Positions 8,991 through 63,242 of a stretch of 64,000 nucleotides of DNA are shown here, one piece after another (the stretch's first letter is position 1; every line of letters starts with the position of its first letter). Where the stretch lies: NCBI GenBank assembly GCA_035610835.1, contig CM069454.1, forward strand, positions 2,853,117-2,917,116, written 5' to 3'. The notes beneath the pieces were generated by a model. The model made no database searches. It saw only the letters and a program-made list of their open reading frames with translations, and was not told where the DNA came from. The position numbers and the translations under genes are program-made. This DNA is from Ophiura sarsii (Eukaryota; Echinodermata; Ophiuroidea; Amphilepidida; Ophiuridae).

Positions 8991-9036
8991 TCGTTTTATG
9001 TATCACGCGTACTGCAGAGGGATACTGTCGGACGTT

Positions 9037-23179: not shown

Positions 23180-25010
23180 TTAGAGAGACCATGTTGATAT
23201 TGTACTCTTTTTATGTTATCTCTATCATCTTTATTTATTGATGCTTTCTTTATTGAGGACTTGCATTGCTTTTCAAGCAGGCCCTGATTTCCATACATAA
23301 ATACATACAAATATGAAATGTTACTTTGTTTAAATATAATACAAATTATAATACAAATAATGATATTATTCAATGATACAGTGGAAATATAGGATTTGAA
23401 TTGACCGAGTGATACATTTTCTAAATCAATACGAATAGATGGTGATAAATTGTTCCACAGGTGGCTAGATTTGAAAAGAAAAGTGCGCATACCAGAATTT
23501 GAGTTGATTTTAGGAATGATTAAAGTATTACTTGAATGATTCCTGGTAGTATGATTGTGTTAGTTATGTACAAATTTAAAATTGGATGATAGATAGGTTG
23601 GATTTGAATTTTCCACCTATCACTTAGTTTTGTCCAATGAAGTATGTTTATCATATCATTTATTGGTGTTCTAATATCAGCAGATAATATTGTTCTGGCT
23701 TAACGGTTGTGTAAGACTTGAAGTCTTGCTTGATATGTATTTAAACAGTTGGACCATACTGGGCTGGCATGATCAAAACGAGGAATCACAAGGGCATTGG
23801 ATAACATCACAAGAGTTGGATGTGGAATCAAATGCTTTACACGAGGAATAACACCGATTCTCTTGGAAACATTATTTGCTAAGTAATCTATATGTAATAA
23901 CCAAGACATGGTACTATCAAATTTGACACCGAGATATTTAAATTCGCTAACCATTTCAATTATAGCATCGTTATAGGTGAGTGAAATATCATTAAACCTA
24001 TTTATCATGTGTCTGGTACAAAATAGCATAACTTTAGTCTTATTGATATTTTAATGTAAGTTTGTTTGCCTTCAACCAATCAGCAACTAGATCTAGGTTT
24101 GATGTCAAAGAAGTTCATCAGTATATTTTGATCTAAATAGTAAAGTGGTGTCATCAGCATACATTGTAGTTTTACTATTTACAGCATTTGGTAAACAATT
24201 TACAAATAAAATAAATAACAGAGGTCCTAATATTGAGCCTTGTGGAACATCAATATTTATATGCTCAAACTCTGAAAGATTAGAATTAACATACAGCCTG
24301 TGATCTATTGCTGAGGTAAGATATAAACCATAAAAGGTCAATACCATCAACACCATACCTTTTAAATTTATCAATTAGCACTTTATGGTTGACAGTATCA
24401 AATGCTTTCTTTAAATCAAGAAAAAGGCACCTGTGACATAACCATTATCCATATAATTGAGAATAACATCTTGTACATCTAGTAAAGTTGTTGTAGAGTG
24501 ATTTGCACGAAAACCTGATTGAACACTCGAAAGAATTCCCTTAGTACTTACATACTTATACAATTGGTTATGAACAGCTCTTTCAATAATTTTAGACACT
24601 ATTATTGGCAGCACTGAAATTGGCCTATATTTACCAACATCTGATTTTTCCCCTGATTTATAAATAGGAGTTACCTTTGCCCTTTTTCAGTCATCGGGAA
24701 AACAGAGCTTCTCAGTGACAAATAACAAATAAAAGCAAGCGATTTTGAAATATAGGGTGCTCCTAATTTGAGCAAACTAACACTAAATTGATCTAACCCT
24801 GCTGATTTATCATTATTCATATTATTAATTTGATTAGAAACAAATTCAGGAATAATATCATAAAACTCAAATTTATCATTAGATGTATCATTATTAATCC
24901 AAGAACATGAATTATTACATGGACAATTATTATTTACATCATTATCAAACTTCTCACCAAGTTTTTTCCCTATAGAAGTATAAAATATGGAAATAAACAA
25001 CATAAAATTA
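23180..25010 (-). pseudogene. Broken CR1/Jockey-like LINE reverse transcriptase
   Basis: Fragments in order on the minus strand give a recognisable non-LTR reverse transcriptase split by frameshifts and stops. The fingers (25003-24671) include NNDKSAGLDQFSVSLLK. 24614-24411 has LPIIVSKIIERAVHNQL and GFRANHSTTTLL. The palm (24374-24105) has [17 protein letters not shown] and the catalytic YADD in [11 protein letters not shown]. 24029-23700 has EFKYLGVKFDSTMSW, and the C-terminal tail (23490-23158) has FLFKSSHLWNNLSPSIR. No endonuclease domain is seen upstream, so the copy is 5'-truncated and dead. The minisatellite at 22513 follows its 3' end. Confidence 0.9.
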
Positions 25011-38599: not shown

Positions 38600-39947
38600 C
38601 GGTACTTAACCACGTAGAATTGACACTAATGATCTTTACAAAATAGTTAAGGTTGAATTAAATTCTGCATACTTCAGCCCCCACCCCTCTCGGTACGGCA
38701 CGGGGTCTACAATGTTCTAAAATGTCATTAGTAAAGATGCATCTTCACGTGGAATTGATACAATGTCCTTTTTAGACATTTTGTGAACTTTTGGAATGTC
38801 GTCTACAGACGCATGCCGCGTGGAAAGTGTTAATGACACTAATGATCTTTACTAAATATTTAACGTTGAATTAAGTTCTGCATACTTCCGCCCCCCCCCC
38901 CCCTCCCTCTCGGTAGGACACGGGGTCTGAAATGTTCTAACATGTCATTAGTAAAGATACATCTCCACGTGGCATTGATACTACAATATGTCATTTTTTA
39001 GAAATTTTGTGAACTTTTGAAATGTCGTCTACAGACGCATACCGCGTGGAAAGTGTTAATGACACTAATGATCTTTACTAAATATTTAACGTTGAATTAA
39101 ATTCTGCATACTTCAGCCCCCACCCCTCTCGGTACGGCACGGGGTCTACAATGTTCTAAAATGTCATTAGTAAAGATGCATCTTCACGTGGAATTGATAC
39201 AATATGTCCTTTTTAGACATTTTGTGAACTTTTGGAATGTCGTCTACAGACGCATGCCGCGTGGAAAGTGTTAATGACACTAATGATCTTTACTAAATAT
39301 TTAACGTTGAATTAAGTTCTGCATACTTCCGCCCCCCCCCCCCCCTCCCTCTCGGTACGACACGGGGTCTGAAATGTTCTAACATGTCATTAGTAAAGAT
39401 ACATCTCCACGTGGAATTGATACTACAATATGTCATTTTTTAGAAATTTTGTGAACTTTTGAAATGTCGTCTACAGACGCATGCCGCGTGGAAAGTGTTA
39501 ATGACACTAATGATCTTTACTAAATATTTAACGTTGAATTAAGTTCTGCATACTCCCCCCCCTCTCACCCCCCCCCCCCCCCCCCCCCCTCTCGGTACGG
39601 CACGGGGTCTACAATGTTCTAAAATGTCATTAGTACGTGGAATTGCTACAATATGTCATGTGTTTAGACATTTTGTGAACTTTTGGAATGTCGTCTACAG
39701 ACGCATGCCCGTGGAAAGTTTCAATCGGACACTAATGATCTTTACTGAATATTTACGGTTGAATTAAGTTCTGCATACTCCCCCCTTCTCGATACGGCAC
39801 GGGGTCTAAAGTGTTCTAAAATGTCACTAAAGATATATCTCCGGTTCTATAAACCACGTGGAATTGACACAAATGATCTTTACCAAATAGTTAAGATATA
39901 ATTCAGTTCTGCATACTCCCGTCTGCCTCTCCGTGCTCAGGCTCATG
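38600..39947. repeat. Satellite of about 220-bp units with alternating variants
   Basis: About six units each contain GACACTAATGATCTTTAC, a poly-C/T run, CTCTCGGTACGGCACGGGG and the MITE end GCCGCGTGGAAAGTGTTAA. Units 1 and 3 are nearly identical, and so are 2 and 4, so the array expanded as dimers. TGCCAGAACCGGTAC lies at both borders (38591 and 39947). The last units are shorter and more diverged. Confidence 0.92.
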
Positions 39948-44715: not shown

Positions 44716-45425
44716 TAATATTAATAATAATAACACTAATATTAACACTAATAACAATAATAATAATAACATTAATAATAATAATAACATTACTAATCAT
44801 AAAACTAATAATAATAATGATAACAATATTAGCGACAAGGCACATATCCAATCTAAATGAGAGCGCCCAAGGCACGAACATATAATACAGTATACATAAA
44901 AACGATGAACAACAATAAAAATGCAAGAGCCTACCGATCTCACATAAAAAGAATGGACGATAAAGCTATACGGTATACAATGAAGAAGGAAGAAACTGAA
45001 TTATTGCAAAATATCTTTAGACATCAGATGTGTTTTCAACAGATTTCTAAAGATTATTACTGTTTTTGCAGTTTTTATATTGATAGGAAGTTCATTCCAG
45101 AGACGAGAAGCTGCAATGGCGAATGATCTGTCTCCCCAAGTGCGTTTAGATATAGTTGCTTGAAGAAGATGCACGTGTCCAGAACGAGAGTGCGAGTTGG
45201 CACATAGTTTGATAACAATTCAGATAAATATGATGGGGCAACATTGTTGATACATTTATATACAATCAGCAATGGTTTGAAAATAATTCTCCGAGCGCAA
45301 GCAAATGGAGTAAGATCGTTTAGAGAATGTGAGTATGAGAGCTGCAGTGTTTTGAATTTTCTGAAGACGATAGTGTTCGTTAGCTGGTAATCTATAAAAA
45401 AAGAGCATTGTTGTTAACAAGACGA
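44716..45425 (-). pseudogene. LINE 3' fragment with (ATT)n-rich tail
   Basis: The minus-strand translation in two frames gives HYRLQKIQNTAALILTFSKR and then VYKCINNVAPSYLSELL. These are parts of the C-terminal tail of a CR1/L2-like reverse transcriptase, joined here by a frameshift and a gap. An AAT/AAC-rich microsatellite at 44716-44840 lies where the 3' tail would be. The copy is short and broken. Confidence 0.75.
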
Positions 45426-46044: not shown

Positions 46045-46289
46045 TATCTTGAATCACGTTTATTGGATTGATGGATTAAACGTTTTTATTCTGGGTATGC
46101 ATAATAGATGATGAATTGTAATGCAAAACAAAACCTGCAATAATGAAAAGAAGCCATCTTGTTTTCAAAACCAATTTGATTTTTGAATATTTTTTAAACA
46201 TTATAAGATTAACATATCCATTACTAATTTCGTGTGAAAATATGAAGTCAATCGCATTTTGTCACAGTGCCGTTCGGGCGCTTGCCCTT

Positions 46290-46530
46290 TACCGCATCTA
46301 CAATGCCAATTCACTCCTATTATAATGTGCGCTATGTGGATATCGATCTTAGGCGGCTTCAGCGTCTCCAATACAAGGCCACACGGCTTGTCTTTGTTTG
46401 TGGAAGGGATGAGCGCTCTTTGAATCTGCTTGCATCCCTCCACTGGCTTCCTATTCAGGATAGAAGTCGCTTTAAATATGTTATGTATGTTTATAAGTGT
46501 ATCAATAATGTAGCACCATCGTATTTGATT
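46290..46530 (+). pseudogene. CR1/L2-like LINE C-terminal fragment
   Basis: The plus-strand frame includes LRRLQRLQYKATRLVFVCGR, NLLASLHWLPIQDRSRFKYV and VYKCINNVAPSYL, the conserved tail of CR1/L2-like reverse transcriptases. It shares VYKCINNVAPSYL with the fragment at 45.1 kb but lies in the opposite orientation. It is truncated on both sides. Confidence 0.8.
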
Positions 46531-46539
46531 ATTTTTTTT

Positions 46540-47760
46540 CATATAATTTTCTTAATCTCATATCATTTTGCATTAATATTCATTAATTTTTCTTCAATAC
46601 TCATATAAATTTGCATCAAGCTCTGTCATCATATTGGAAAACAACACCTAACGTACATAATTTCCATCAATATAAATGGATGCACTTGGTATTCACAGAT
46701 TTTATCATTGTCTCACAATGTTATCATGGAAGTTTGTAGATATTATTACTTACAGATATTGTTCGGCTTTCATTTGTACAGGCGGAAAAATGTTATGTTG
46801 ATCGATGTTCAATACAACTACATGTATACCATTTAAAAGCTTAACATGATATCTTTAATATTAATCATATAATTTGCATCAATATGTCATACGTTTGCAT
46901 CAATATTCATATTATTTTGCATCAACATCCATAACGTTCATGATTACAATAATAAACTGTGCGTCAATTTTCACACGGTTTAAATAATGTGTATACATTT
47001 ATTTGACATAACAGGACGTGGTTCAGTCATGAAACAGAAATTACAGTAATAATGTGTAAGACGATTATAACTAGTTTACAAAATCTGTCATTAATAACTA
47101 ATAGTATTATTTTCATCAATGTCGTATAATGTTGCATTAATATTCATATAATGTTGTTTCACTACTCATATACAATTGCATCAAATTCCATTATATTATA
47201 ATAATATATAAAAATACAATAATATACGTTGCATCAATGATCATACAGTTTACATAATTTGTGAGACGATAATATAGATTTTTCAAAATCTAATAATTAA
47301 TCATTATTATTATTCATATACTTGCTATCAATGTCATATAATTTTGCATTAATATTCTTATAAATTTGCTTCAATACTCAATATACATCAAACTCTATAT
47401 ATTATATAATTACAACAATATACGTTGCATCAATGTTCATACAGTTTACATTTGAATCAGGATTTGATTCAGTCTTATACAAATTCTCAATGATGTGTAC
47501 CGGATAAATCAATAAACTGTCATCATATTGGAAAAACAACACCTAACGGACATAATTTCCATCAACAGAAATGGATACATAACACTTAACTTGGTATTCA
47601 CAGATGTTATCATTGTCTTACAAAGTAATCATAGAAGTTTGCAGATTATTGTTATTTACAGAATTTGTTCGTACAGGTGGAAAACCATAATGTCGATCGA
47701 TGTTACAAAACAATTACATGTATACCATTCGTAAGCTTAACATTATGCTACATATAAATG
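46540..47760. repeat. AT-rich repeat field with about 895-bp duplication
   Basis: Degenerate TTGCATCAATATTCATATAA motifs recur many times. The segment from TCATCATATTGGAAAACAAC (46626) to about 46860 is repeated at 47520-47750, with the same order of words (ATTTCCATCAA, TTGGTATTCACAGAT, GTCGATCGATGTT). No coding potential is seen. Confidence 0.7.
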
Positions 47761-49601: not shown

Positions 49602-52600
49602 TTATCTTCTGTTTGCTCTACGATCAGCTCCAACCATATTATCCCTTGGTAGTCTTTCCACTAGATAATTATTATTGGTTGGATTTTCTACCCAGTTAGC
49701 TGGTGACATCATCACTCTGCCTATTTGTTTCATTGACGAATATGTAGATCCCCGTATTTTCTTTACTTCCGACTCAATAAAAGGTACAAAAGGATCTCTG
49801 CTGTCGAGATTACGTTTTACCTCACGTTTGACTGAGCCAATGCGCTCCTTCTCGTCTGGGGACTGGGCAAAAAGCTCGGCTACACAGGCTGTCTTGTATC
49901 TCTCTCGATTTGATCCACGTAGGTATTCTGCGCGATCTCCAGGATTGGCTAGATCATGATCCGTATTCTTAATAATGTTTGTACGTTCAGCCTCATATTG
50001 CCACTGGGTAACACGATTGATGTCGGTCCGTTCAGTATGAATCACTAATGCGTTAAAAATTCCTCTTCGAGCGGTATGAGGTGTGTTTGTATCAGCACGG
50101 CCTTGTTCATCGTTTTTGTAAAATGCCGCCTTGATTTCACCATGAAAAGAATCTTGTTTCTGCGTTCTGAACTTATTTGAGCTAAATGTTGCACTATGTC
50201 CGTACAGCAGTCCATTCTCCTCGTGCACGACATACATAGTGTCAACGCGCATGTGGTTTAACAGATCTAAGTGGTCATAATCACTTTTATCGCCGAAATT
50301 TAATTTGGATTTCAAATCATCATTTTTTGAAAGTTCAATCCATTTAATGAATTCTGCCCTTTTTAGAAACTCATGGTTATGAAGTTTGTCATCTATCAGA
50401 CTTTTCATCAGTTTCTTTTTACCCTCAATACTCAGGTTTGAATGATCGATAGTGGAATTTCGTAGATCGTCAATTCTGCCGCTCATGTTATTGTTCCTTA
50501 CGTCTGTTCTTGCTATACCTCCAAAACCACCTTTCCCCATGAAGTGCGCATGTATGCCCCTTTTTATGCGTCGCCTTGTGGTTGGGTTATGTTCTATGTC
50601 TCTTGCAACTTCTTCTCTATCCAATGAGGAACCTGTACATTCATTGATTGCTGCAAACAAACAATCGTATCTCCCTGCCGATTGGCTTATATTTCCTTGC
50701 CCTGCTGCACCACAACCAGTTGTGAAATGTCCGCTGGTACCGTCTTCACCTGCGTGAAAATCGAGTACAATAGGATCGCCACTACGTTTTCCACTGGTTG
50801 GTTCGAAATCGCTTGGTATTGTCATTGTATTGTCGCCGCCATTATTCCTCACGTTAATGATGATTTTTCTATTTAATAGTTCTGCCATAGCCTGCGTGCT
50901 ATGGATTCCCACAGGCACACCTTCTCTGACTATATTAGCAAAAAGACGGGGACTCCTAGTTTTCATCATCAATTTGGTCATCTCTCGGCAGTACTCTTCG
51001 TGGACCTGTTTGGTCATGTTTGTTTCGTTGCTCTTTGCTCTGTCTATAACAGTACCCTCCGCTTTGTCTTCGGGTTTATATTTCTTCTGTATTTCAAGAT
51101 ACTGTTGTTCATGACGGTAGTTTCTGTACATCGAATAGGTCTTTTGGATAGATTTTCCGGCATATTTTCGTGCCTTTGAGGCACAATATTGCATAGCGGG
51201 CCTTACAAAATCAGTAACAAGCTTGTCTTTAATCTGTGTTGCTATGCGCTGTTGTAATTCGGCTGTGATGTTATTTTCAAATGTGGCGTCATTCGAGGAT
51301 TGATCATTGCTAATTGAGGTAGCATTGTTTTCATGACCAACAGATGCAGCTTCTAGTTCTCGGATCTTCTCCCGTATTCCATCTGATATATGTTGCAAAG
51401 TACTTTCGGTGACGGTGCATAATTCACCTATAGCTTTCACTGTTGCAATCCCCGAGAGAGTCTCAGACATTACCTGAGATATATTCCCCAACAGCTTTGC
51501 CGATTCATTTCCACAATGTTTGAGTTTGCCAGCAGCTTGGCCTACTCCACCGGTGACGGTACTAACTATTTTAGATATGCTTGCCATAAGATCATTCCAT
51601 TCTACACTATTGCTAATGCTATCATCGTATACGCGCCAAATACACCTTTCGGCTTCTTCTGGACCCACTTGTTGCTTTAATCGTCTCATCTGGGATACAA
51701 CATCGAGCTTCGCAATTACGCTTTTAATGCTGCCCATAATCGATTCACATGCAGTCTGCAACTGTTCATCAACCAAGTGTTCAATGGCTTTGTCTATTGC
51801 AGCGTTGCAGAGACCGGTTGCAACCCCTTCCGCTATCTTTTTTCCAACCCTAATCATGACTTGTTTGGCAAGAGCTCGTTTTCCAACTTGTTTGATCAGT
51901 GCTCGTCCTGTCAATTGTTGTACCCATCTATCCCCAATCTTGTAACCATATCTCGAAAACTTGGCCCCTCTTGAAAGATAAGCACCGATTCCACCCGTGA
52001 TAGCCGTAATGCATACGCTTATTATTTTGTGTTTGGCATACGCTTTCCAGGTGCAATACCCGGAAAATGCACATTCCATACCAAATATGATGTCACCGAT
52101 TCCTTCGCCAATGAGACCGACAGCGATGTTAGTGGCGGCACCAGCAGTAACAATCTCAAGGCATGCTCCGGCAATTATTTGTAACACTCCTAAAGCAATT
52201 ATAATGGCAATTTTGCAGATACTTTGCCATGTCCATTTCCGTTCACAGAGTGAGATCGTCCGATCCAAACCATTTATCGCAAACATACCGAATTCCTCGG
52301 AAAGAGATAGCTGTGCTGTCACTTCAAAAGACTCTTTAATATCAACTAGTTGTGAGTCCATATTGTCATATTTGCTTAGCACAGTTTGCCACGAATGTAA
52401 CCGTTTCTCGATATCTTTAAGAAGTTTCTTAGTAGCTATTTTCCCGTGTAATATATTTTTGATGGGCATATCTACCGTTTTAAATTCTGAATTCAGACTT
52501 TGATCTCTCAGCATTTCGGCAGAGCACGTGACTCTATGTACGCTGGATTCCTTGCAAATCCATCCAAAGTATGTCATTCTAGCAATGACGTGAGACAAAT

Positions 52601-55600
52601 CCACTTGGTTTAGATGTAAAGAAAGTGCTAATTGTTCCTGAGTCACTTGAGCCAATTCACGGAGCATAAGTTGTTCATATTTGTAACTTCCACGTTCATG
52701 TGCAACCGTTGCAATGTCAGCTGTGACGTCTGCTGTAAGTGCCGCTCCTGCTCCAGCAACTCCTGAATGTACAACATTGACAACACGATCCATTTTCGTA
52801 TAATGAATGCCATATAATTCCTTTAAAATGTGACCAAATTGATCGTCCTTGAGCTTTGGGTTCACTTGTACAGGTGCTATAATATCGCGGTTAATCAATT
52901 CGTTGAACAAGTATGCGTTTGGATTCGAAGGCAGAGTAAATGTACCATCGAGGGTAAACTGAATCAGTTCTAGTCTGTACTGAAAGCTCTTTGACAGAAC
53001 ATTAAGTATTTCAGTTATTATTTGACGATAGCTCGGCAAATCGATATCTTTGAAATTTTCGTGGAGAAGTCGATACGGCTCATTAGCTGAAATTACCTGC
53101 TTGGCAATCAATTGCTGAAGAATATCTTTAGAATTCATGATGCTTACACCTTTGATGACACAGAATGTGTCTTCGCATATTCCATCGTATCGATTAAGCT
53201 TGATAGAATCAAAATCAACTTCATTGTTGAGTATGGCTCGCTTGTTAGTTTGGATAATGCTCTCTCCTTTCCTTGATCTGAGCGCTCTCCACAATTCTAC
53301 CCTGCCGAATTCGGCTTCAAAATCATTCCGTGGAATCAACATTTTCGCTTCCACCTTGTCTATTTGTTCTGGATACAGCCACACTATCCTATTTATTGAA
53401 GTTTGAACAGAACAAAGGCTATCATAATCAACTTTCAATCTCTGATTGGATTCTTCATCTTTGCTATCAGAAGCCTTGCCTACTACAATAGCTTTCATAC
53501 TGGAAAATTCTAGCAGATTCCTTTTTGCAGCATCGTTCAGCATTTGGGTAGATTTGAGATTTTCCTTGTCCAATAAAACGTATTCTACTTCATGAGACAA
53601 AATGTCTGCTTTAAGGAGTGTGTCCCAGAATTCTTCTCTACTTGGCAATATGTGTGCTATGTCGTGTTCACACACTTCGACTTTATAAGAGAGACTCTTC
53701 ACCTTACTTTCAATATCTTCGAAGTAGAGTGCGTATTCCTTTTTGAGCTCATCAAGGTTGTCTTTATAATTTGATACAATTGTTGGTCCTACTAATACGT
53801 CTCTCCTACGTAAGTCATCAAATATCATTTTGGCATGTAGGGAATCGTATGTTACATCCCCAATCATCGCAAGTGTCACTTCGTGTCCACGAATATCTTT
53901 GATAGATTCGACAAATTTGGAATACACACCAATCACTTCTTCTTTCTGTTTTTTGTAATCATCTGCAACCAGAAAGCTATTCTGAAGTTTCGTGTACTGA
54001 TCACTTATAGATCTAATGATGATGACCATATTTTGCAACTGATCTATTCGATTTTCTAGAAGGACCTTTGCCCGATGTAAATGCTTATGGAAGCGTGAAC
54101 TCTCCTTTTCTATCAGTTTTAACTTAACCATACAATGTGATTTATAATAATGAGCGGCTTCGGAATATTCATCTTCCATGTTGATCACTTCATCGAAAGT
54201 GGACATTGCTTCGTCAAACTTCTTCTTTTCTATCAAAACCTTCCCTAGCTTAGTGCAGTTAATCGGACTCAATATCAATGGCAACTTGTCAATCTCGATG
54301 TTCTTCAAAGCCTCCCCAACAGTACTAAGAATGGTTGACAGTTTTTCAGCTATGTCAGTCCCACTTTCAACATCCTCCTGCACACTGTCTAGCCACAGGG
54401 CCCACCTATCTAACAAACTATCTGTTACAAGAGATATTTCCTCGGAACTGAAGATCTTCTTTTTGGCCTTCATTGTTTGTTTCAATTTTAAATAAGAACG
54501 TTCAAATTTGTCAAAAGCCTGTTCTTCAACGAGAATCTTTTGCTCGTAACTATCTTTGATCTCTGCAATCCGTTGTTGCTCCAATTGATTCCGTTCAGTC
54601 TTCAATGTCATACACTTAACATTACTCCTTATTTGGAGATCTTCGCTGTCATCCGTCTCCATGAGTATGATCATATTCCCACTTCCATTTTGCCCTTTTC
54701 TTGCAGTTCGCCCGTAGGCCTGTTGTTCAATACGAATATTAGAGGGTAAGTACGTCAGACATACGTACAATCCACCGTCATTACTAGTTGTCTCCTCGAT
54801 CTTTATGTCCGTACCACGCCCAGCCAGATTTGTCGCTAATACAACACAGCCTTTTTTGACCGGTTTCAAAAAAACATCTGGCTGTTCATAGCTGTGTTTG
54901 TAAACATGTAGGTCTACATTTTCCACAATTGCGTGTCGTTTAAATCTCTTTTCTACCATTTCTAGTTTACGAATGGTTTCACAAATGACAAGTACTGGTC
55001 GTGTCTCTGAGATCGTCTTTACACAATTGCCAATCTCTTCAAGCCATTCGTTTTCAGTTTCGCAGATTACAGCATCTTCTTCAATGAACCTCGATGATCG
55101 ATATTTAGGTACGGTGACATATTCAATGTGATAGAGTTCTCTCAGCAGTGTCCGTTCTCTATCAGAGCCTAACGTACCTGTTAAACCGTATATGTTGTGT
55201 TCGTAACGCTTAAAAAAGCTGATATTGGACATAAAGACTGCTTTGACACTTTCCATGCTTGTGCGACAACTGTGTTTCAATTGTAAGAACTGGTGGAGGG
55301 CTTCGTTCCATTGGGAATTGTATTGCTCGATGCCAGTGTCTGTATCCATTATAATGACGTTTGTAAGCCATGGTTGATTCGTTTCACTTTTATCAACATC
55401 TATTATATAGTGTTCACCTTCAACCAAGAAACGTGCTCTGAAAGCATTTTCGATCCATATCTTCAAATGACGTTTAACGTATGCTTCCAAAAAATGGGGT
55501 ATACTGAAACTTGAACCTTTTCGCAGAGTATCTTTCAAAGTGCGTGTTACTATGTCTGAATGCGAGCATTTCAAACTACATCTACCGTTCTGTATTTCCT

Positions 55601-58600
55601 CTGTCTTCAACATTATTCCATCTTTATCCATCACGTTGTCATCAATAAGATCTTGCCAGATTTGCTGTAGCTCATCGGGAGTCGTCGGTTTCCCCAGGCA
55701 GCATAAATTCTTCTGCAGATCAATTTTTTGCAAAGTACCAAACATGGCATCCATTATTCCTGTGTACACTAAGTCCATGTCCTTTTCTGTTCCGACCAGA
55801 TCGCTAGCATGGACGAAACTCCAAATATGAACAAAGACCAGCTCCAAATGATTCATACCTGGAATATCGTGAGAAAGATAGAGGACATTCTGGCCTTTAT
55901 CTAGCAACATACTATCAACCTCGTCTACAATGACATTGTCACTCAAACGATCGCCAAGTATGTTTTTATTGTAGAACTCATCCAGGAGAATATCTCGCTG
56001 GAAAGTACCGATTTCGCCATAGACAATGGAAGACTTGTATGCTGCTGTTCTGTCCTTCAAATTTTCACTGCAATTATGTGACACACTTGCACCGAAGAGT
56101 TCGTAGATATCCCTATATAATTCTGCATCGCGTGCTGCTAACACAGGGGAACTTGTAATAATGTCAACTCTCTGTCCACTCAAATGCTTGACGATTGACA
56201 ACGCTACTATTATCAGAGATTTACCTTCACCGGTGGAGACCTGTTCTAACATCCCTCTATGTGTATTTAATAAGAATAGCAGAATCGATATCTGTTGGGT
56301 ATTCCGTAATGAGAATCCTCTTTGAATTGATATGGCACGCAGAACTACGCACAATATCTCATCCATATTGTCCATGACGTCAGGAGCTGGACTTATGGAC
56401 TTGAACTGTGATGCCCACGAGCGAATATCGTCCGCGGTGAATTGACCTATTTGGTTATTTTTCTGTGACTTAAATTCCTCCGGCTCGGGTAGAAATTGTG
56501 AATATTTCTTCTCCATGTCTTTCGTCCTGCGCAGTAAATCTTCTACCCGAACATAAATGGAATGAGAAATGGAATTGTTTGAATCTCTCTTCATTATCTG
56601 AGTCAAATCAACTAAATCTCTATCTTTAATATTCAAACTGCGTTTGCTGATCTCAATTTGCCATTTTTCAGGCGTGCAATTTCGGATGATTTGTAATATG
56701 GAGCTTTCACACGGCCATCGATTGGAGTATAGGTTTTTTAACAGTGTCATGAAATCGCATTCATCTATTTTGGATTTGGTTTTAAGAATTGCAACAAAAT
56801 CCTCCATAATCTCATCGCCGTGTCTGTTTCGTAACTCCCACAGATAACTTGCTGCCTCTACTATATTCGTCTCAGTCAAATGGCTCACACTTAGCGATTC
56901 CAATACCAAAAATTCTTGGCGTAATCGCAGTCGATATGGCCATTCACGAAGCGCCAGATTTGTCAAATCTAGCATTGTATGACCATCCAACTCCCCCCTT
57001 TGTATAGCTTCAATGCATTCTACAAAATGTGCAACAGAACATGATTTGCAATCCTTGCCGGCTAACTGCTGACTTAAAAACAAGACTGATCTTCTACTTT
57101 CAACTTCCGAAAGCTTCTCACGGAGCACATTCTCATCTTCAAGTGATATGTGGGTAGCCATCCGCAGTTGTACCAAGATGTATTCATGTAACCAGTTGGG
57201 GTAACTATGTAATGTAAATATGCTGGTTAATTCAGCCACAATCTGTGCGGTGCCGATTCCAATAATACGGGATATAAGCCACTTGAGTGTTTCGATGTAC
57301 AGGCGTGAATCCTCAGATTCTTCACATAAGATTCGATCAAATAAAACTTGATGCAATTGTTTTATACCATCAGTTTCAACAAAACTCAGATTCTCAACGC
57401 AGTATTTTACCTCTGGAGCTAACGGCAACGACTGAACGTTAGTGGATATCACCCCTTGGGGTTCGTTATCGTATTTATCTGCACTACCAGTGAATGTCTC
57501 TTCATTTTCCTCATCACCATCTGAGTCGATCATCTCATCAGCAGAGCCCAACTCCTTTGTGTCATTGTCGCCACACACATCCTTATTTTCTTCTCCTTCA
57601 AAAGACTCAATTGCACCTTCAAATATTTGGAAATAGCTAGAATCAGTGGCAAAATCCGTAGATTCAAACTGTCTGATGATAGTCTGCATATTATGATAAC
57701 GAATGACGTTCTGCGAATAATCCTCCATTGTTTGCATATCACGCATTGCCCGTAAGTCCTGATAAATCTCAATATATTTACTCTGATTATATTGGCGGAT
57801 GAAGTCATGAAGATCTGATAAACATTTAAGATGTGCAGTGTCGTGGTTTCCATTCACATCGCACGTTTTCTTGTTGATTTGTTGTGATATCCTTTTCATG
57901 AGATTAAACCTGTACTTGCCGACCAAAGAATCACTAATTAAACTGAAAATAAGTTTTAAGTCTTTATCCAGAATGTTACGGTTTTCAGAAAATGGGATCC
58001 GGTAACGATGTTGTTTGCTTGTGACAATTTGTTCAAGACAGATCTGAATATCGAACACAGCTTTTTCCAATATGTCAATTTGTTCTTTATCCAATGTCCA
58101 TTGTCTGATTTTCGTGTGAAGCATTTTCAATATATCTGTGATATTCTTAAGGTCCCGTTCACCATCTGCTTGGCCGTTCCTGAAAATGGTAGCTATTTCT
58201 TCCAATTGGTCGAACCATTGTTGAAACGATGCACTCCTACAATGTTCGATTATTCTCTCAACAGCATTCATTTTCGATGGATCACTTAGTCCAACTGTAT
58301 TTCCTATCTGATGATTGTCCTTGTTAACAGTGGCCATTGTAGTCATCACATCACATTTTGAAAATACGGGTACTGGTACCCGAACTTTTGAATAACCACG
58401 AGAGGAGCCTTTATCTTTGGTTACTATTGTGTGTGTATGACGTGTTTCATTTAAAGACCTCGTTTGAAGCTGTGCTGTTAAACTAGTAAGATTGTTTGTA
58501 CAAACTGTGAGGTTTTCTTGTAAGGATGCTCTTGTTTGGAACGCATCGATACCTTGGATAAACTCTCTTTCAACTTTATCGTTGTCAATGGGTATTTGTC

Positions 58601-61256
58601 GACGTAGTTGCAGTTGAGCTTGCGATGCACCACAAGCGGACTTCACGTTCATACCATCGCAGCCATACTCAGCGCGAACGCTACGTTGATCTGGACGAGA
58701 ATCTGCTGATATATAAGCATACTGCCTGTTACGTGGACAGTAGGCATGTTCTGTCTTGCTATCATATTCGTCAGAGTACTTCAGTGACAAATGTCCATGT
58801 ATCCATTGTGTACCACTTGCCATTCCACCGCATATACGTGAATTGTCCTTTCCTTTTTCACCATGTATGCCACCACGGCCACCACGACCATCTTCACCCG
58901 ACTTCCCATCTCTACCCTTATTACAATCGACTGTTATGTTATCATGTTTGCTACCTGTCATTTCTACAGTTCCTTCATAGCCACCTAAACCAGCATTGCC
59001 TTTTGCACCACCATTGCCTCCTTGAGTTCCTTCAGTACCATCCTTACCATACTGGATGCAGTAAGCCTGCCTACCCGATGCAATCCCAAAACTAAAAATG
59101 TTACCTAATGCATTTTGATAATGAGACCGTATCATCCGATGACCATCGTGTGTTTTCCCTGTTATGTAGTAACAATTCAGACCATATTCGTTTGTATTAA
59201 CATGACAACTATTTTGATTACAGAGGTTGGTGTTGGATTCAAACGAGTCAGCCAACATCACAGCTGTATCTGGAAAAAGATCTTTGAATTGTTCTTGAGT
59301 TAAAGTGCACCCATCCACACCATCCTTACCATCTCCACCATTCCCACCATTCCCACCATTGCTACCGTTACCTCCGTTTGACATAATAGTAAGTTTGTCT
59401 CCATTCACTAAACTATTCGTCATAATCAGCACGTTCCCACCACTCTCTCCATGGCAACCATGTTCTCCCGCTTCGCCGTCTTCTCCAGCGACATCGCCAT
59501 CGCTCGGTTGACCACGTTTGCCGTTAGCACCGTCATGTTCTGCATTAACTCCAGACACGTCCCAGACAATATCTCGCTGGATGTGGATTTCTTTTGCTGC
59601 CATGACAATATTGATACCGGGCATTCGAAGATCACAGTTTGCACGCAGCACCTCAAATGAATATATTTGAATCTCTGTGACATTATTTATACTGACATTC
59701 TGGGATGCTAACATGTATTTAATCAGATCAGTAACTTGCTGTAAATCTGTATAATAGCCACGGCATATTACATGGGTTCTATTATCTTTCTTCTCAAACG
59801 TAATTGATGGTAATTGTCCGATTCTATCTATCACTTGTGCTAGGTTTTGCCTAAACACATTACTTACAGTCGTACGACGTAAATGAGCGGCTAGTTTCCG
59901 CAGTTTGCAAGATACGTATGGTAGGTCTTTTTCAGTGCTTAATACCGCTAATAACTTCGTATTAACCATGTTAACCATGCTATCATGATTTTGCAGAGAT
60001 TTGATCCCAAGCTTCCGTAATAACTTCGTAACCATGCTATCATAATTTTGACATGAATTAGCAAACTCCTCCAGGAAATCTTCATTGTGAACGTAATAAC
60101 ATTTGATACAGTTTAAAAGTTCTTCAACGAAACTATTCTCAGAACCGAGCGACTTGCATTTCGAATTCAAATAGTTCCGGCAAAGTACAAGAAACCTGTT
60201 GAAGAAGGCGCGTTTCTGTTGTTCATCCATGATTGTCTGGCATTGTTTGAAATTGTTATAGCTTAGTAATATTTCAAACGGCTTACCAACATCTTCCAAC
60301 ATTTTCAAGCTAGAAACTATTTTCTGAAATAATTGTATTGAGTCATCTGAACATACCATTGTTGGCAGAAATCGCTCTGTTTCAGTTATAAATTGGGTTA
60401 AGCTGAATTTGATATACCACTTTTGAATATATAAACTTTCTCTACGGCTTATAGAAAATCCTGCTTTCGTGATTATATCTTTAACAATGTCCAGTGAACG
60501 ATGGTTTGCTACGGCTGTTGAAATCATCGATTTTACTTGACTTTTCCTTGTTTCAAACTCAGAATCAGAATAACGACATGTCAACACGGTATCGCTTCCA
60601 ACAGATGAAGATGGCCCCGAACAGTTACAGCAGAACTTAACTCCTAAATAGATCATGATAATACTATACAACAGCATGGTACACATTATACTCACTAGTA
60701 ACCTTATCCAGTACACGAAATCGATGTTGACAAATATTGTGGACGCATTGTGACGATGGCGTGACACCCGTGCTTTAACGTTTTCAACCCTTGTTTGAGC
60801 CATATCTACGCTCTGTTCCAGATCATCCGTTATGCTTGTCAGGCACGTTGCTTGTTCTGTTCTAGTTTGAGCCTGTTCTTCGCTCTGTTCTAGACCATCA
60901 GTTATGCTTGTCGGGCACGTTGCTTGTTCTGTTCTAGAGCTTGTCTGATCCCGTTCTACGCTCTGGTCCAGATCATTAGTCACGTTTGTCGGGCACTTTG
61001 CCTGTTCTTTTCTAGAGCTGGTCTGAGTCCGTTCTACACTCTGTAACAGATCAGTTATGCTTGTCGGGCACGATGATTGTTCTGTCCTAGAGCTTATCTC
61101 TTCTTTTGTCTCTACTTGACATACACCTCCGTCAGCGTAACTCAGGGTGTGACGTAGTGCGTCCATTGCCGTTGTCGTTGATTTAGGCTTGCTTGGTCTT
61201 CCAGTCACAGCAGCCGTAGTCGGGTGTGAAGGCAAACACCTTAATCTCCTCCTCAC
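49602..61256 (-). CDS. Giant SecA-like ATPase protein, single 11.7-kb exon
   Basis: An uninterrupted frame of 3,884 codons ends in TAA at 49604-49602. Its first codon is GTG, directly behind a splice acceptor, so it is the start of an exon and not a start codon. The first ATG is residue 31 (61166-61164), in a good context (G at -3, G at +4). Domain order by residue: four 25-residue Cys repeats (55-155), one transmembrane helix (about 184-206), a Gly-rich collagen-like region (573-805), a SecA-type motor core (about 1640-2230), a TPR-like hairpin (about 2330-2375), long helical stretches, a hydrophobic segment (about 3006-3092) and a C-terminal Cys/His peptidase-like region (about 3440-3790). 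Bacterial SecA is about 800-900 residues and drives preproteins through SecYEG, so only the motor is shared and the animal function is unknown. No other gene is close by. An origin by transfer from bacteria is inferred. Confidence 0.9.
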   Translation of the reverse strand: MRRRLRCLPSHPTTAAVTGRPSKPKSTTTAMDALRHTLSYADGGVCQVETKEEISSRTEQSSCPTSITDLLQSVERTQTSSRKEQAKCPTNVTNDLDQSVERDQTSSRTEQATCPTSITDGLEQSEEQAQTRTEQATCLTSITDDLEQSVDMAQTRVENVKARVSRHRHNASTIFVNIDFVYWIRLLVSIMCTMLLYSIIMIYLGVKFCCNCSGPSSSVGSDTVLTCRYSDSEFETRKSQVKSMISTAVANHRSLDIVKDIITKAGFSISRRESLYIQKWYIKFSLTQFITETERFLPTMVCSDDSIQLFQKIVSSLKMLEDVGKPFEILLSYNNFKQCQTIMDEQQKRAFFNRFLVLCRNYLNSKCKSLGSENSFVEELLNCIKCYYVHNEDFLEEFANSCQNYDSMVTKLLRKLGIKSLQNHDSMVNMVNTKLLAVLSTEKDLPYVSCKLRKLAAHLRRTTVSNVFRQNLAQVIDRIGQLPSITFEKKDNRTHVICRGYYTDLQQVTDLIKYMLASQNVSINNVTEIQIYSFEVLRANCDLRMPGINIVMAAKEIHIQRDIVWDVSGVNAEHDGANGKRGQPSDGDVAGEDGEAGEHGCHGESGGNVLIMTNSLVNGDKLTIMSNGGNGSNGGNGGNGGDGKDGVDGCTLTQEQFKDLFPDTAVMLADSFESNTNLCNQNSCHVNTNEYGLNCYYITGKTHDGHRMIRSHYQNALGNIFSFGIASGRQAYCIQYGKDGTEGTQGGNGGAKGNAGLGGYEGTVEMTGSKHDNITVDCNKGRDGKSGEDGRGGRGGIHGEKGKDNSRICGGMASGTQWIHGHLSLKYSDEYDSKTEHAYCPRNRQYAYISADSRPDQRSVRAEYGCDGMNVKSACGASQAQLQLRRQIPIDNDKVEREFIQGIDAFQTRASLQENLTVCTNNLTSLTAQLQTRSLNETRHTHTIVTKDKGSSRGYSKVRVPVPVFSKCDVMTTMATVNKDNHQIGNTVGLSDPSKMNAVERIIEHCRSASFQQWFDQLEEIATIFRNGQADGERDLKNITDILKMLHTKIRQWTLDKEQIDILEKAVFDIQICLEQIVTSKQHRYRIPFSENRNILDKDLKLIFSLISDSLVGKYRFNLMKRISQQINKKTCDVNGNHDTAHLKCLSDLHDFIRQYNQSKYIEIYQDLRAMRDMQTMEDYSQNVIRYHNMQTIIRQFESTDFATDSSYFQIFEGAIESFEGEENKDVCGDNDTKELGSADEMIDSDGDEENEETFTGSADKYDNEPQGVISTNVQSLPLAPEVKYCVENLSFVETDGIKQLHQVLFDRILCEESEDSRLYIETLKWLISRIIGIGTAQIVAELTSIFTLHSYPNWLHEYILVQLRMATHISLEDENVLREKLSEVESRRSVLFLSQQLAGKDCKSCSVAHFVECIEAIQRGELDGHTMLDLTNLALREWPYRLRLRQEFLVLESLSVSHLTETNIVEAASYLWELRNRHGDEIMEDFVAILKTKSKIDECDFMTLLKNLYSNRWPCESSILQIIRNCTPEKWQIEISKRSLNIKDRDLVDLTQIMKRDSNNSISHSIYVRVEDLLRRTKDMEKKYSQFLPEPEEFKSQKNNQIGQFTADDIRSWASQFKSISPAPDVMDNMDEILCVVLRAISIQRGFSLRNTQQISILLFLLNTHRGMLEQVSTGEGKSLIIVALSIVKHLSGQRVDIITSSPVLAARDAELYRDIYELFGASVSHNCSENLKDRTAAYKSSIVYGEIGTFQRDILLDEFYNKNILGDRLSDNVIVDEVDSMLLDKGQNVLYLSHDIPGMNHLELVFVHIWSFVHASDLVGTEKDMDLVYTGIMDAMFGTLQKIDLQKNLCCLGKPTTPDELQQIWQDLIDDNVMDKDGIMLKTEEIQNGRCSLKCSHSDIVTRTLKDTLRKGSSFSIPHFLEAYVKRHLKIWIENAFRARFLVEGEHYIIDVDKSETNQPWLTNVIIMDTDTGIEQYNSQWNEALHQFLQLKHSCRTSMESVKAVFMSNISFFKRYEHNIYGLTGTLGSDRERTLLRELYHIEYVTVPKYRSSRFIEEDAVICETENEWLEEIGNCVKTISETRPVLVICETIRKLEMVEKRFKRHAIVENVDLHVYKHSYEQPDVFLKPVKKGCVVLATNLAGRGTDIKIEETTSNDGGLYVCLTYLPSNIRIEQQAYGRTARKGQNGSGNMIILMETDDSEDLQIRSNVKCMTLKTERNQLEQQRIAEIKDSYEQKILVEEQAFDKFERSYLKLKQTMKAKKKIFSSEEISLVTDSLLDRWALWLDSVQEDVESGTDIAEKLSTILSTVGEALKNIEIDKLPLILSPINCTKLGKVLIEKKKFDEAMSTFDEVINMEDEYSEAAHYYKSHCMVKLKLIEKESSRFHKHLHRAKVLLENRIDQLQNMVIIIRSISDQYTKLQNSFLVADDYKKQKEEVIGVYSKFVESIKDIRGHEVTLAMIGDVTYDSLHAKMIFDDLRRRDVLVGPTIVSNYKDNLDELKKEYALYFEDIESKVKSLSYKVEVCEHDIAHILPSREEFWDTLLKADILSHEVEYVLLDKENLKSTQMLNDAAKRNLLEFSSMKAIVVGKASDSKDEESNQRLKVDYDSLCSVQTSINRIVWLYPEQIDKVEAKMLIPRNDFEAEFGRVELWRALRSRKGESIIQTNKRAILNNEVDFDSIKLNRYDGICEDTFCVIKGVSIMNSKDILQQLIAKQVISANEPYRLLHENFKDIDLPSYRQIITEILNVLSKSFQYRLELIQFTLDGTFTLPSNPNAYLFNELINRDIIAPVQVNPKLKDDQFGHILKELYGIHYTKMDRVVNVVHSGVAGAGAALTADVTADIATVAHERGSYKYEQLMLRELAQVTQEQLALSLHLNQVDLSHVIARMTYFGWICKESSVHRVTCSAEMLRDQSLNSEFKTVDMPIKNILHGKIATKKLLKDIEKRLHSWQTVLSKYDNMDSQLVDIKESFEVTAQLSLSEEFGMFAINGLDRTISLCERKWTWQSICKIAIIIALGVLQIIAGACLEIVTAGAATNIAVGLIGEGIGDIIFGMECAFSGYCTWKAYAKHKIISVCITAITGGIGAYLSRGAKFSRYGYKIGDRWVQQLTGRALIKQVGKRALAKQVMIRVGKKIAEGVATGLCNAAIDKAIEHLVDEQLQTACESIMGSIKSVIAKLDVVSQMRRLKQQVGPEEAERCIWRVYDDSISNSVEWNDLMASISKIVSTVTGGVGQAAGKLKHCGNESAKLLGNISQVMSETLSGIATVKAIGELCTVTESTLQHISDGIREKIRELEAASVGHENNATSISNDQSSNDATFENNITAELQQRIATQIKDKLVTDFVRPAMQYCASKARKYAGKSIQKTYSMYRNYRHEQQYLEIQKKYKPEDKAEGTVIDRAKSNETNMTKQVHEEYCREMTKLMMKTRSPRLFANIVREGVPVGIHSTQAMAELLNRKIIINVRNNGGDNTMTIPSDFEPTSGKRSGDPIVLDFHAGEDGTSGHFTTGCGAAGQGNISQSAGRYDCLFAAINECTGSSLDREEVARDIEHNPTTRRRIKRGIHAHFMGKGGFGGIARTDVRNNNMSGRIDDLRNSTIDHSNLSIEGKKKLMKSLIDDKLHNHEFLKRAEFIKWIELSKNDDLKSKLNFGDKSDYDHLDLLNHMRVDTMYVVHEENGLLYGHSATFSSNKFRTQKQDSFHGEIKAAFYKNDEQGRADTNTPHTARRGIFNALVIHTERTDINRVTQWQYEAERTNIIKNTDHDLANPGDRAEYLRGSNRERYKTACVAELFAQSPDEKERIGSVKREVKRNLDSRDPFVPFIESEVKKIRGSTYSSMKQIGRVMMSPANWVENPTNNNYLVERLPRDNMVGADRRANRR
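49887..50939 (-). other. C-terminal Cys/His region, OTU/papain-like peptidase candidate
   Basis: Residues about 3440-3790. A YDCLFAAI motif (Cys 3532) resembles the catalytic Cys motif of OTU-type papain-fold peptidases (D-x-x-C-L-F-x-A). Two histidines are candidates for the partner. His 3510, in SGHFTTG, follows a segment of the kind A-E-L-L-N-R-K-I-I-I-N...P-I-V-L-D-F, which looks like the end of an OTU fold. His 3687, in LLYGHSATF, lies 155 residues after the Cys. The first would mean a circularly permuted order and the second the usual order. This is a motif reading only; no structure was modelled. Confidence 0.45.
54567..56339 (-). other. SecA-type DEAD motor core within the giant protein
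   Basis: Residues about 1640-2230. Visible motifs in order: Walker A TGEGKS (1675-1680), a TSSPVLAARDAE segment like the SecA motif Ia region, YGEIGTFQRD, Walker B-type DEVD (1778-1781) followed by SMLLD, a DTGIEQYNSQWNEALHQF segment matching SecA's D-x-x-T-G...W...LHQ region, GLTGTLG (2024-2030), AGRGTD (2145-2150) and motif VI GRTARKGQ (arginine 2183). The DEVD box, LTGT and AGRGTD together are specific to SecA among superfamily 2 ATPases. All nucleotide-binding residues I can check are kept, so the ATPase is probably active. The insert between DEVD and LHQF is in the place of SecA's preprotein-binding domain but does not resemble it to the eye. No SecA C-terminal zinc-binding tail is seen. 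Confidence 0.9.
58842..59540 (-). other. Gly-rich collagen-like region of the giant protein
   Basis: Residues about 573-805. Two blocks of short Gly-X-Y-like runs (around 573-660 and 745-803, for example GNGGNGGDGKDG and GRDGKSGEDGRGGRGG) flank a non-repetitive stretch with several Cys. The runs are rich in Asn, Asp, Lys and Glu and almost lack Pro, so a true collagen triple helix is unlikely. A glycine-rich structural or adhesive linker is more plausible. The coding DNA is not a simple microsatellite, because third positions vary, so the repetition appears to be kept at protein level. Confidence 0.75.
60639..60707 (-). other. Predicted transmembrane segment of the giant protein
   Basis: Residues about 184-206 are almost wholly hydrophobic (Leu, Val, Ile, Met, Tyr). 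Arg and His clusters lie just upstream (about 158-172) and a Cys-rich CCNC motif lies directly after it (209-212). With no signal peptide visible before it, this would act as a signal anchor. The positive-inside rule puts the N-terminal repeats in the cytosol and the large body on the other side, but that topology is only inferred. Confidence 0.6.
60792..61094 (-). repeat. Four tandem coding repeats of about 25 residues near the N terminus
   Basis: Residues 55-155 contain four copies of a unit like SSRTEQA-x-CPTSITD-x-LEQSVE. Each carries one Cys, and the spacing is 25, 26 and about 24 residues. The copies are alike at DNA level too, so the array arose by recent tandem duplication and may vary in copy number. 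It precedes the predicted transmembrane helix. Confidence 0.85.
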
Positions 61257-61280
61257 CTGTTATAAACAAGAAAAACGATA
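61257..61280 (-). promoter_or_regulatory. Splice acceptor in front of the giant exon
   Basis: On the minus strand a pyrimidine-rich run (CGTTTTTCTTG) is followed by TTATAACAG and then the exon, which begins GTGAGG. The codon directly before CAG in the coding frame is TAA, so the reading frame cannot continue upstream without splicing. An exon starting at 61256 is therefore expected. It either joins an upstream coding exon in phase 0 or carries a short 5' untranslated part before ATG at 61166. Confidence 0.65.
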
Positions 61281-61533
61281 CATTTTCAAGAAAACGGCAT
61301 CTGAAAGCTGAGTGTTTTCCCTTTTCGTGTTTATAAATATATTACACCAAACTTTAGGACTTCATGGTCAACAAGTTGCGCAAACATGTGCACAATTTTT
61401 TAGGGACACCCTGTACACTTTTATTAAGCAAAATCTGCAACAATAAACCATGGAAAACGAGAAAGGATAACGGAAAAATAGTGGGAATTTCAAAAGAAGC
61501 TGATCATTATTTTTTTTTCAAACCGTTGAAAGA

Positions 61534-62803: not shown

Positions 62804-63070
62804 TTATACTCGTACACATCCTACCGTATTATTTTCTATTCGTCCTCTTGTACCACTTTCGCCATCATCGTTAACAGTTTCATCTGTAGGCCATATTGTA
62901 CCATCATCAGACGCCACTTCATCATACCAGGGAAAGCCCTGCGTTCTCCCTCTCACACCTCTTTCCGCCACCTCAAGATCTTGTTGAAGCTCATATCGCC
63001 CGTATTTTCGTCGAAGATGTCGTTCCTTGCGCCACATTGTACGTAACTTACGTTGCAGACTATTCCACTC
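62804..63070 (-). other. Possible upstream exon, highly charged peptide
   Basis: On the minus strand a TTTTAACAG acceptor ends at 63071. An 88-codon open frame follows, starting EWNSLQRKLRTMWRKERHL and ending in TAA at 62804. The first part is basic and helical; the second is acidic and rich in Asp, Glu and Gly. As at the giant exon, a TAA codon precedes the CAG in frame. The splice donor is unclear (a GTATGA near 62928 or a GTAGGA near 62827 are weak options). It may be an upstream exon of the SecA-like gene 1.5 kb away, or part of another gene. I do not recognise the peptide. Confidence 0.3.
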
Positions 63071-63242
63071 CTGTTAAAATTTCACACAAGAATGAAAACA
63101 ATGGAAGTCACACAAGCTCATGACCTATACAATTACACCAATTCAAACGGAATAACCTTCGGCACTATCCAACAAAATGTTCATATATTGGGGAGGGGGT
63201 TGTGACATGGTTTTCCAAACCGGCACGAAAACGGGCTATTGG

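Follow-up and report, generated by a model that had tools for sequence, protein, structure and literature searches.

A giant SecA-motor gene of the brittle star Ophiura sarsii, probably a domesticated member of a family built like polymorphic toxins

A 64,000-nucleotide stretch of the genome of the brittle star Ophiura sarsii (C14:2853117-2917116, hereafter the window) carries on its minus strand a giant gene whose product contains a SecA-type motor. On sequence grounds, the gene is a member of the giant eukaryotic-like SecA family (wBol1_1092 type). Judging from alignments of its members, this family is built like a polymorphic toxin: a long constant body leads into a pre-tip domain with conserved His and Cys residues and then into a Gly-Gly junction, beyond which the C-terminal tip is exchangeable. 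The giant animal/Wolbachia SecA family itself is already known; what looks new is its modularity with exchangeable tips, of which we found no description on giant SecA proteins in the excerpts of the literature searched (subscription journals were not covered). On balance, we favour the reading that the window gene is a domesticated member of this SecA-motor, polymorphic-toxin-like family and one of three intact nuclear animal paralogues. It is read as the domesticated descendant of a weapon because its lineage has kept one tip class and purifying selection acts on all three copies.

A profile of the domain preceding the C-terminus was applied to 241 proteins (P0001-P0241), of which 102 carry this pre-tip domain and 96 reach its end, i.e. 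the junction. Tips of at least 60 amino acids follow in 90 of these 96 (six shorter ones were dropped). They form 19 clusters (28, 28 and 14 members, four of 2 and twelve of 1; phmmer E<1e-3, single-linkage), which is an upper estimate of independent tips; single-linkage may miss distant similarity, and the tips of P0045 and P0061, for example, retain a similarity of E 0.002 over 27 residues. For 3,667 residues, the Wolbachia proteins P0029 and P0030 share 99.755% identity; beyond that point they continue into tips of 241 and 225 amino acids, respectively, that have no BLAST match to each other at E<=10. Likewise, P0020 and P0022 are 96.1% identical over 3,685 residues and end in tips without significant similarity. 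Two tips are common in Wolbachia, each found in five close relatives (P0025, P0026, P0030, P0033 and P0037 versus P0020, P0024, P0029, P0032 and P0038), and this recurrence speaks against an assembly error. The motor tree, with 88 of the 90 tip-bearing proteins, requires no fewer than 28 changes of tip, against the 16 that 17 classes need as a minimum. The family therefore has the constant body, sharp junction and unrelated ends among close relatives that characterize polymorphic toxins, while the tip is stable in the window's own clade.

Several residues of the pre-tip domain, aligned at the domain end, are widely kept: H3511 in 77/94 proteins, F3512 in 82/95, C3533 in 86/96, R3548 in 93/96 and H3570 in 82/96. 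The two glycines that precede the tip are each kept in 78/95. The three paralogues of the O. sarsii genome and P0002 retain the His-Phe, Asp-Cys and Gly-Gly pairs. In the window protein, an OTU-like match in the pre-tip domain precedes the Cys motif, i.e. the His half comes before the Cys half, and the family consensus has a sub-threshold match to Tox-PL-2 (E 0.0057). The pre-tip domain may be an OTU-like peptidase in circularly permuted form, with its cut placed after Gly-Gly. The parts of the window gene lie as follows (window coordinates; TM, transmembrane; NBD, nucleotide-binding domain):

49602..61259, minus: giant frame, 3,885 codons plus stop, translation P0001; identical to C14:2902721-2914375
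62945..63061, minus: conserved 39-residue upstream block (tblastx against two paralogues)
61257..61275, minus: acceptor-like pyrimidine stretch ending in CAG (judged by eye; likewise at the other two giant frames)
61164..61166, minus: first in-frame ATG, codon 32 (from the sequence)
60790..61099, minus: 78-bp tandem repeat, 4.1 copies, a lineage-specific N-terminal protein repeat
60621..60737, minus: two TM-like segments, residues 175-193 and 195-213, not family-wide
59040..60566, minus: N-terminal module, residues 232-740, in part common to animals and Wolbachia
58770..59582, minus: glycine-rich region, residues ~560-830
55167..56465, minus: SecA_DEAD (NBD1), residues 1599-2031 (Pfam)
56217-56234, minus: Walker A motif TGEGKS
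55914-55925, minus: motif DEVD
55167-55184, minus: motif LTGTLG
54699..55079, minus: SecA P-loop/Helicase_C part (NBD2), from residue 2061 (Pfam)
54807-54824, minus: motif AGRGTD
54699-54713, minus: motif GRTAR
51690..52292, minus: conserved hydrophobic/glycine-rich module, residues 2990-3190
50517..50969, minus: pre-tip domain, residues 3431-3581, with H3511, C3533, H3570 and the GGFGG junction (end 3581)
49605..50516, minus: C-terminal tip, residues 3582-3885, tip cluster 2

The motor is recognized by Pfam through SecA_DEAD (residues 1599-2031, 104.1 bits, cut-off 24.6, E=1e-29), P-loop_SecA (residues 2061-2156, 49.9 bits, cut-off 27) and Helicase_C (23.7 bits, cut-off 23.5). An earlier note on this DNA, made from the letters and open frames, had reported five SecA motifs in SecA order within one long frame, and all five are present (TGEGKS, DEVD, LTGTLG, AGRGTD and GRTAR start at residues 1676, 1779, 2026, 2146 and 2183). 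Its assignment of the protein to SecA is upheld both by the SecA_DEAD match and by the PDB sequences matched at E<=0.01, all 24 of which are SecA chains (best 7e-35). The TGEGK, DEVD and GR.R positions are invariant in a 16-member alignment.

The frame is uninterrupted from 61259 to 49605 (stop at 49602-49604). Chance can be excluded as the source of a frame of 3,885 codons: log10 P is about -120, and shuffling the window 20 times (first order) yields an open reading frame (ORF) of 224 codons at most. Directly upstream on its 5' side stands TTTTTCTTGTTTATAACAG, which resembles a splice acceptor and would put the exon start at 61256, the position given as the frame end in the earlier note. The giant frame is probably one large exon starting there; all three giant frames of the genome start close to a pyrimidine-rich, acceptor-like sequence with ACAG at its end (judged by eye). 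The first in-frame ATG has the context GGCAATGG. Upstream of the giant exon on the same strand, the 39-residue block at 62945..63061, preceded by an acceptor-like AG at 63071-63072, is conserved in tblastx between the window and the C14 paralogue (61.5% over 39 aa, E 8e-11), between the window and the C15 paralogue (66.7% over 33 aa, E 1e-10) and between the two paralogues (58.3% over 48 residues, E 1.5e-15). This block is a candidate upstream coding exon of the giant gene, its joining being putative. A match directly 5' of the giant exon, between window 61263-61420 and the upstream region of the C14 paralogue, looks like a common non-coding repeat because the two are alike in several frames and on both strands (tblastx).

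A TM-like helix at residues 3019-3037 (52149-52205, minus) lies within the conserved hydrophobic module and is found at the matching place in seven of eight relatives scanned, Wolbachia P0029 being without it. The earlier note had called the protein membrane-anchored; two TM-like segments are indeed seen at residues 175-213, but none of the eight relatives has an equivalent pair (a single segment lies within the first 220 residues of P0002 and of P0012), so the putative anchor is not general among the relatives scanned.

The window tip belongs to a cluster of 14 members that includes Clytia, an octocoral, Mytilus, Amphiura and others. Its class tracks the body tree with two label changes, and eight aligned members share eight invariant columns (R, D, G, H, L, G, E and K). 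The tip of this clade looks fixed rather than exchanged.

Some tips of other family members resemble toxins. Two of ten tips or C-terminal pieces pass a Pfam cut-off: that of P0113 matches Endonuclea_NS_2 (49.1 bits) and that of P0121, from the bdelloid rotifer Didymodactylos carnosus, the OTT_1508 deaminase (34.3 bits); the tip of the mayfly protein P0094 matches GIY-YIG under the cut-off. On a phage-like contig (L004), a SecA protein of 3,554 residues has an end that matches WHH (59.7 bits) and Colicin-DNase (44.1 bits), and the next ORF, which overlaps the SecA stop, encodes a SUKH/SMI1_KNR4 immunity protein (82.9 bits). Its counterpart on contig L005, which is phage-like as well, is 92.6% identical over residues 1-3409, and the flanking DNA is 95-99% identical on both sides. 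The two differ in the protein end and the following ORF, and in a stretch of ~230 bases located ~250 bases before the tip. L004 also has, at 16480-16651, a second pre-tip copy (82% identical to L005 15273-15441), which appears to resemble orphan tip modules. L005 encodes a portal protein (30.5 bits, cut-off 30), a sub-threshold terminase and a Protochlamydia outer-membrane protein.

Many of these parts are familiar from polymorphic toxins. The abstract and excerpts of Zhang et al. 2012 (PMC3482391) describe (i) a releasing papain/OTU-like peptidase before the variable C-terminal domain; (ii) WHH nucleases, deaminases and SUKH immunity proteins as typical parts; (iii) OTU domains in large Wolbachia proteins that resemble polymorphic toxins; and (iv) in a single mention there, SecA-like domains as variable effector domains of Amoebophilus. 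The giant SecA family is similar in having a constant body and a variable C-terminal domain, and its pre-tip domain may correspond to the processing peptidase. By contrast, that abstract names no secretory route in which the toxin carries a SecA motor of its own, and no immunity partner of the window gene is seen.

A SecA_DEAD search of the whole genome (1,573,662,873 bases in 748 contigs) finds three places, each within an open frame:

C14:2902721-2914375: giant SecA frame, the window gene, 3,885 codons
C15:4871221-4883799: giant SecA paralogue, 4,193 codons
C14:16926-31448: giant SecA paralogue, 4,841 codons

The pre-tip domain and tip together find the same three giant genes only, and residues 32-2420 add one fragment with one stop (C11:16628718-16629089), which resembles residues ~731-858 of the window protein. 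The C14:16926-31448 paralogue, ~17 kb from the contig start, has the N-terminal module twice in one frame; its residues 58-706 and 994-1622 each match P0002 from residue 90 on. Identity among the three is 58-61% in the motor, 46-57% in the pre-tip domain and 26-34% in the tip, and at ~26-61% by region the paralogues are, by this measure, old. Ten partly overlapping regions in three pairs give 30 comparisons. Third codon positions are the most divergent in 30/30, and dN<dS in all 15 for which dS is estimable. The three paralogues are under purifying selection, because frames of such length stay open at such divergence. The claim of selection in the earlier note, which rested on one open frame, thus gains three intact frames and the 15/15 estimable comparisons.

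A protein search with residues 1500-2300 gave 958 proteins at E<=0.001. The best 120 of these 958 include proteins of brittle star, mussels, a hydrozoan, bees, ants, mosquitoes, brine shrimp, rotifers and nematodes, and also of Wolbachia and other Rickettsiales. Many relatives are collinear with the window protein well past the SecA part; Wolbachia P0029, for instance, is collinear with residues 222-627 and 1348-3608. The proposal of the earlier note that a transferred SecA was rebuilt into a multidomain protein is not supported for this animal, given this collinearity and the description of the family in 2013 (excerpts of the paper by Duplouy et al. cited below). With residues 1431-2560 as query, further and shorter relatives appear in frogs, fish, beetles, Paramecium, a fungus and bacteria. 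The SecA-like proteins of frogs, newt and fish have 1,024-1,921 aa (P0196, P0197, P0198, P0203, P0207, P0217, P0218 and P0224), and those of frog, newt and part of the fish form one set in FastTree.

In the motor phylogeny (71 rows, IQ-TREE quick search, SH-aLRT support only), the giant sequences of animals and Rickettsiales form a single set (97) that joins two bacterial sequences, one of them a Legionellales metagenome-assembled genome (union 89). Most deeper lineages are bacteria or phage mixed with some animals, Paramecium and a fungus. The nearest relatives of the window motor are two proteins, followed by the brittle star Amphiura filiformis and one more protein; A. filiformis is the nearest named relative, and its copy is a different sequence from the window gene. 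The E. coli SecA branch measures 4.3 substitutions per site, so that the giant clade is far from canonical SecA. The motor falls outside the canonical Sec family, and the pulling or unfolding of proteins outside the Sec pathway proposed in the earlier note is a putative role. A bacterial origin, also proposed there, is plausible, but the root is not secure because it is set only by the very distant E. coli SecA.

Giant SecA genes are also borne by plasmids of Megaera, Bandiella and Legionella geestiana. The Megaera plasmid (L008 1-18065) has two adjacent SecA-like genes, one giant and one of 1,589 residues. The Bandiella plasmid (L009 1-10410) has a giant SecA gene with LysM (31 bits) in its tip. 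Two ORFs come next, and the first of them matches a lipoprotein signal below threshold; the SecA tip also contains GHSLGG, which we take to be a lipase-like motif.

Excerpts of Duplouy et al. 2013 (PMC3639933) report Wolbachia wBol1_1092 as an 11.8-kb gene with full-length homologues in an ant (Harpegnathos) and Daphnia, few true introns and a place in a eukaryotic clade. They also report an omega of 0.266 between two Wolbachia strains, indicating purifying selection, and infer transfer from eukaryotes to Wolbachia. That direction would fit our trees, where Wolbachia and other Rickettsiales of the giant group nest inside arthropods (71-row IQ-TREE; the 226-row FastTree agrees). The window protein resembles this family in its collinearity on both sides of the SecA domain, in a very long, largely intronless frame of >11 kb and in having SecA_DEAD and P-loop_SecA. 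It differs in coming from a marine-type clade without Wolbachia, and the excerpts of that account do not describe exchangeable tips, the junction or an immunity partner. Phage WO carries a SecA of the same family in its eukaryotic association module, among domains closer to invertebrate than to bacterial proteins; in the parts of these papers considered here, it is classed under secretion of virulence factors and tips are not discussed (Bordenstein and Bordenstein 2016, PMC5062602; 2022, PMC9203015).

How would such a protein work? The SecA motor would use ATP hydrolysis to unfold a polypeptide chain and thread it, the chain being most likely the protein's own C-terminal part. This would happen at a membrane that the conserved hydrophobic module touches, and a cut after Gly-Gly by the OTU-like cysteine peptidase would release the tip as an effector. 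The domesticated protein probably acts inside the animal's own cells, e.g. against intracellular bacteria. We tentatively extend this to the possibility of a self-powered delivery protein in which a single chain unites a SecA motor for translocation, a module that inserts into the membrane, a permuted OTU-like Gly-Gly peptidase and an exchangeable effector. It would have originated as a weapon used by intracellular bacteria and by phages infecting them, passed repeatedly between these and animals, and been kept by several animal lineages as a cell-autonomous effector. For more than a decade, giant SecA proteins of invertebrates, Wolbachia and phage WO have been annotated as secretion factors or functionless transfers, whereas tip exchange supplies a testable function, i.e. 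motor, releasing peptidase and effector. Such a function would (i) add a motor-driven class to the routes of polymorphic toxins; (ii) account for the gene's travelling with phage WO; and (iii) offer animal genes in which to study how a bacterial weapon gets tamed. If the self-powered version is true, animals possess polymorphic toxins of their own, domesticated and with a translocase inside.

Several results weigh against a weapon-derived delivery protein. The first group concerns the motor. As in canonical SecA (E. coli, PDB 8ya0 and others), both nucleotide-binding halves and intact Walker and helicase motifs are present, but the window protein has 3,885 residues against 901 in E. coli. Of the two SecA profiles named in the earlier note, SecA_DEAD passes its cut-off and SecA_PP_bind (PF01043, the preprotein cross-linking domain, PPXD) does not, with 15.2 bits against 23.5. 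SecA_SW (the helical scaffold/wing, presumably PF07516) is not among the five Pfam families listed for the giant protein at E<=10. Translocation by the motor is not established, because SecA_PP_bind lies under its cut-off and SecA_SW is absent from the listing. We do not claim the window gene as a canonical SecA preprotein translocase, because not all of the tested features are seen in it.

The second group concerns the C-terminal parts. In the window protein, the match of the pre-tip domain to the C-terminal, His-bearing half of OTU is weak (E 0.25, 12.3 bits against a cut-off of 23.3), and a profile search with the closely related Wolbachia pre-tip piece gave no match. The window tip matches no Pfam or NCBIfam family, no PDB chain (one chance-level match, E 0.69) and none of 2,267 proteins of about its own length at E<=0.01. 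Over the 3.2 kb that follow the window frame downstream, no ORF counted from Met reaches 80 aa (introns ignored). The same scan found none downstream of the C14 paralogue and one 98-aa antisense ORF downstream of the C15 paralogue. L004 and L005 are the only relatives with a seen immunity gene, and only the motor is common to them and the window protein (32%, ~640 aa); searches of genome-contig, viral-contig and phage collections yielded no Wolbachia locus. Tip class 2 is stable in its own clade, i.e. exchange is observed in relatives and not in the window gene, and dS is saturated for motor and tip in 3/3 paralogue comparisons. We do not claim the window gene itself as a polymorphic toxin, since its tip is not a recognizable toxin and no immunity gene is adjacent, though its family appears to work like one.

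Somewhat unlikely, in our estimate, is a host unfoldase or helicase-like protein with an ordinary cell role, whose motor remodels host proteins or nucleoprotein and whose C-terminal segment is a fast-diverging adaptor. The stability of the tip class from cnidarians to echinoderms and molluscs (14 members) agrees with such an adaptor, as do the missing toxin match of the window tip and the absence of an immunity-like ORF nearby. However, an adaptor of this kind accounts poorly for near-identical Wolbachia bodies that change at a sharp junction into wholly unrelated tips, for nuclease and deaminase tips in relatives, and for His, Cys and Gly-Gly residues conserved right at the junction.

It is improbable that the gene is a selfish or recently transferred symbiont gene hopping between endosymbionts and animals, its presence reflecting transfer rather than host function. 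Besides the Wolbachia and Rickettsiales sequences inside arthropod clades, the copies of Osmia (P0039), Chilo (P0041) and Artemia (P0049) fit such hopping. They are 70-72% identical to one another over ~3,180 residues and ~74-81% identical to Wolbachia proteins over >3,100 residues, and their placement within or beside Wolbachia points to recent transfers, or to contamination of those assemblies. In O. sarsii, however, three old, intact and constrained copies are found, no convincing terminal inverted repeats surround the frame, and the clade holding the window gene has no bacterial member among the named rows.

We give very little weight to a plastid- or mitochondrion-type SecA retained by animals for organelle protein import. 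The motor is homologous and some databases label relatives 'Chloroplast protein-transporting ATPase', but the giant clade is far from canonical SecA (in a tree with one plain SecA and no plastid SecA), the PP_bind match is sub-threshold and SecA_SW was not found in the Pfam listing. The 'Protein translocase subunit SecA' labels on animal proteins mislead. Contamination by bacterial DNA, suggested by the bacterial nature of the SecA family, can be practically dismissed unless the contig is chimeric: the motor lies in an animal chromosome, consistent with the animal protein of the earlier note, and not on a bacterial contig (69,982,176 bases of a 1.57-Gb genome), with one gene-length frame in the 64 kb, microsatellites, no tRNA, a GC content of 0.41 against 0.37 in the flanks at a similar CpG ratio, and three diverged copies on two chromosome-size contigs.

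Around the favoured domesticated family member, the window contains no tRNAs, and eight neighbouring ORFs have no Pfam match at E<=0.01. The ORFs at 8390-8995, 23700-24050, 45075-45413 and 46246-46608, which have no such match, look like C-terminal pieces of LINE reverse transcriptases. A transposon with inverted repeats around the gene was considered and rejected, as none of eight short terminal-inverted-repeat pairs convincingly brackets the frame. A 788-base stretch occurs in two identical copies 1,252 bases apart (1110-1897 and 2362-3149), and tandem arrays occupy 22514-23176 (33-bp unit, 20.6 copies) and 38621-39779 (226/442-bp units).

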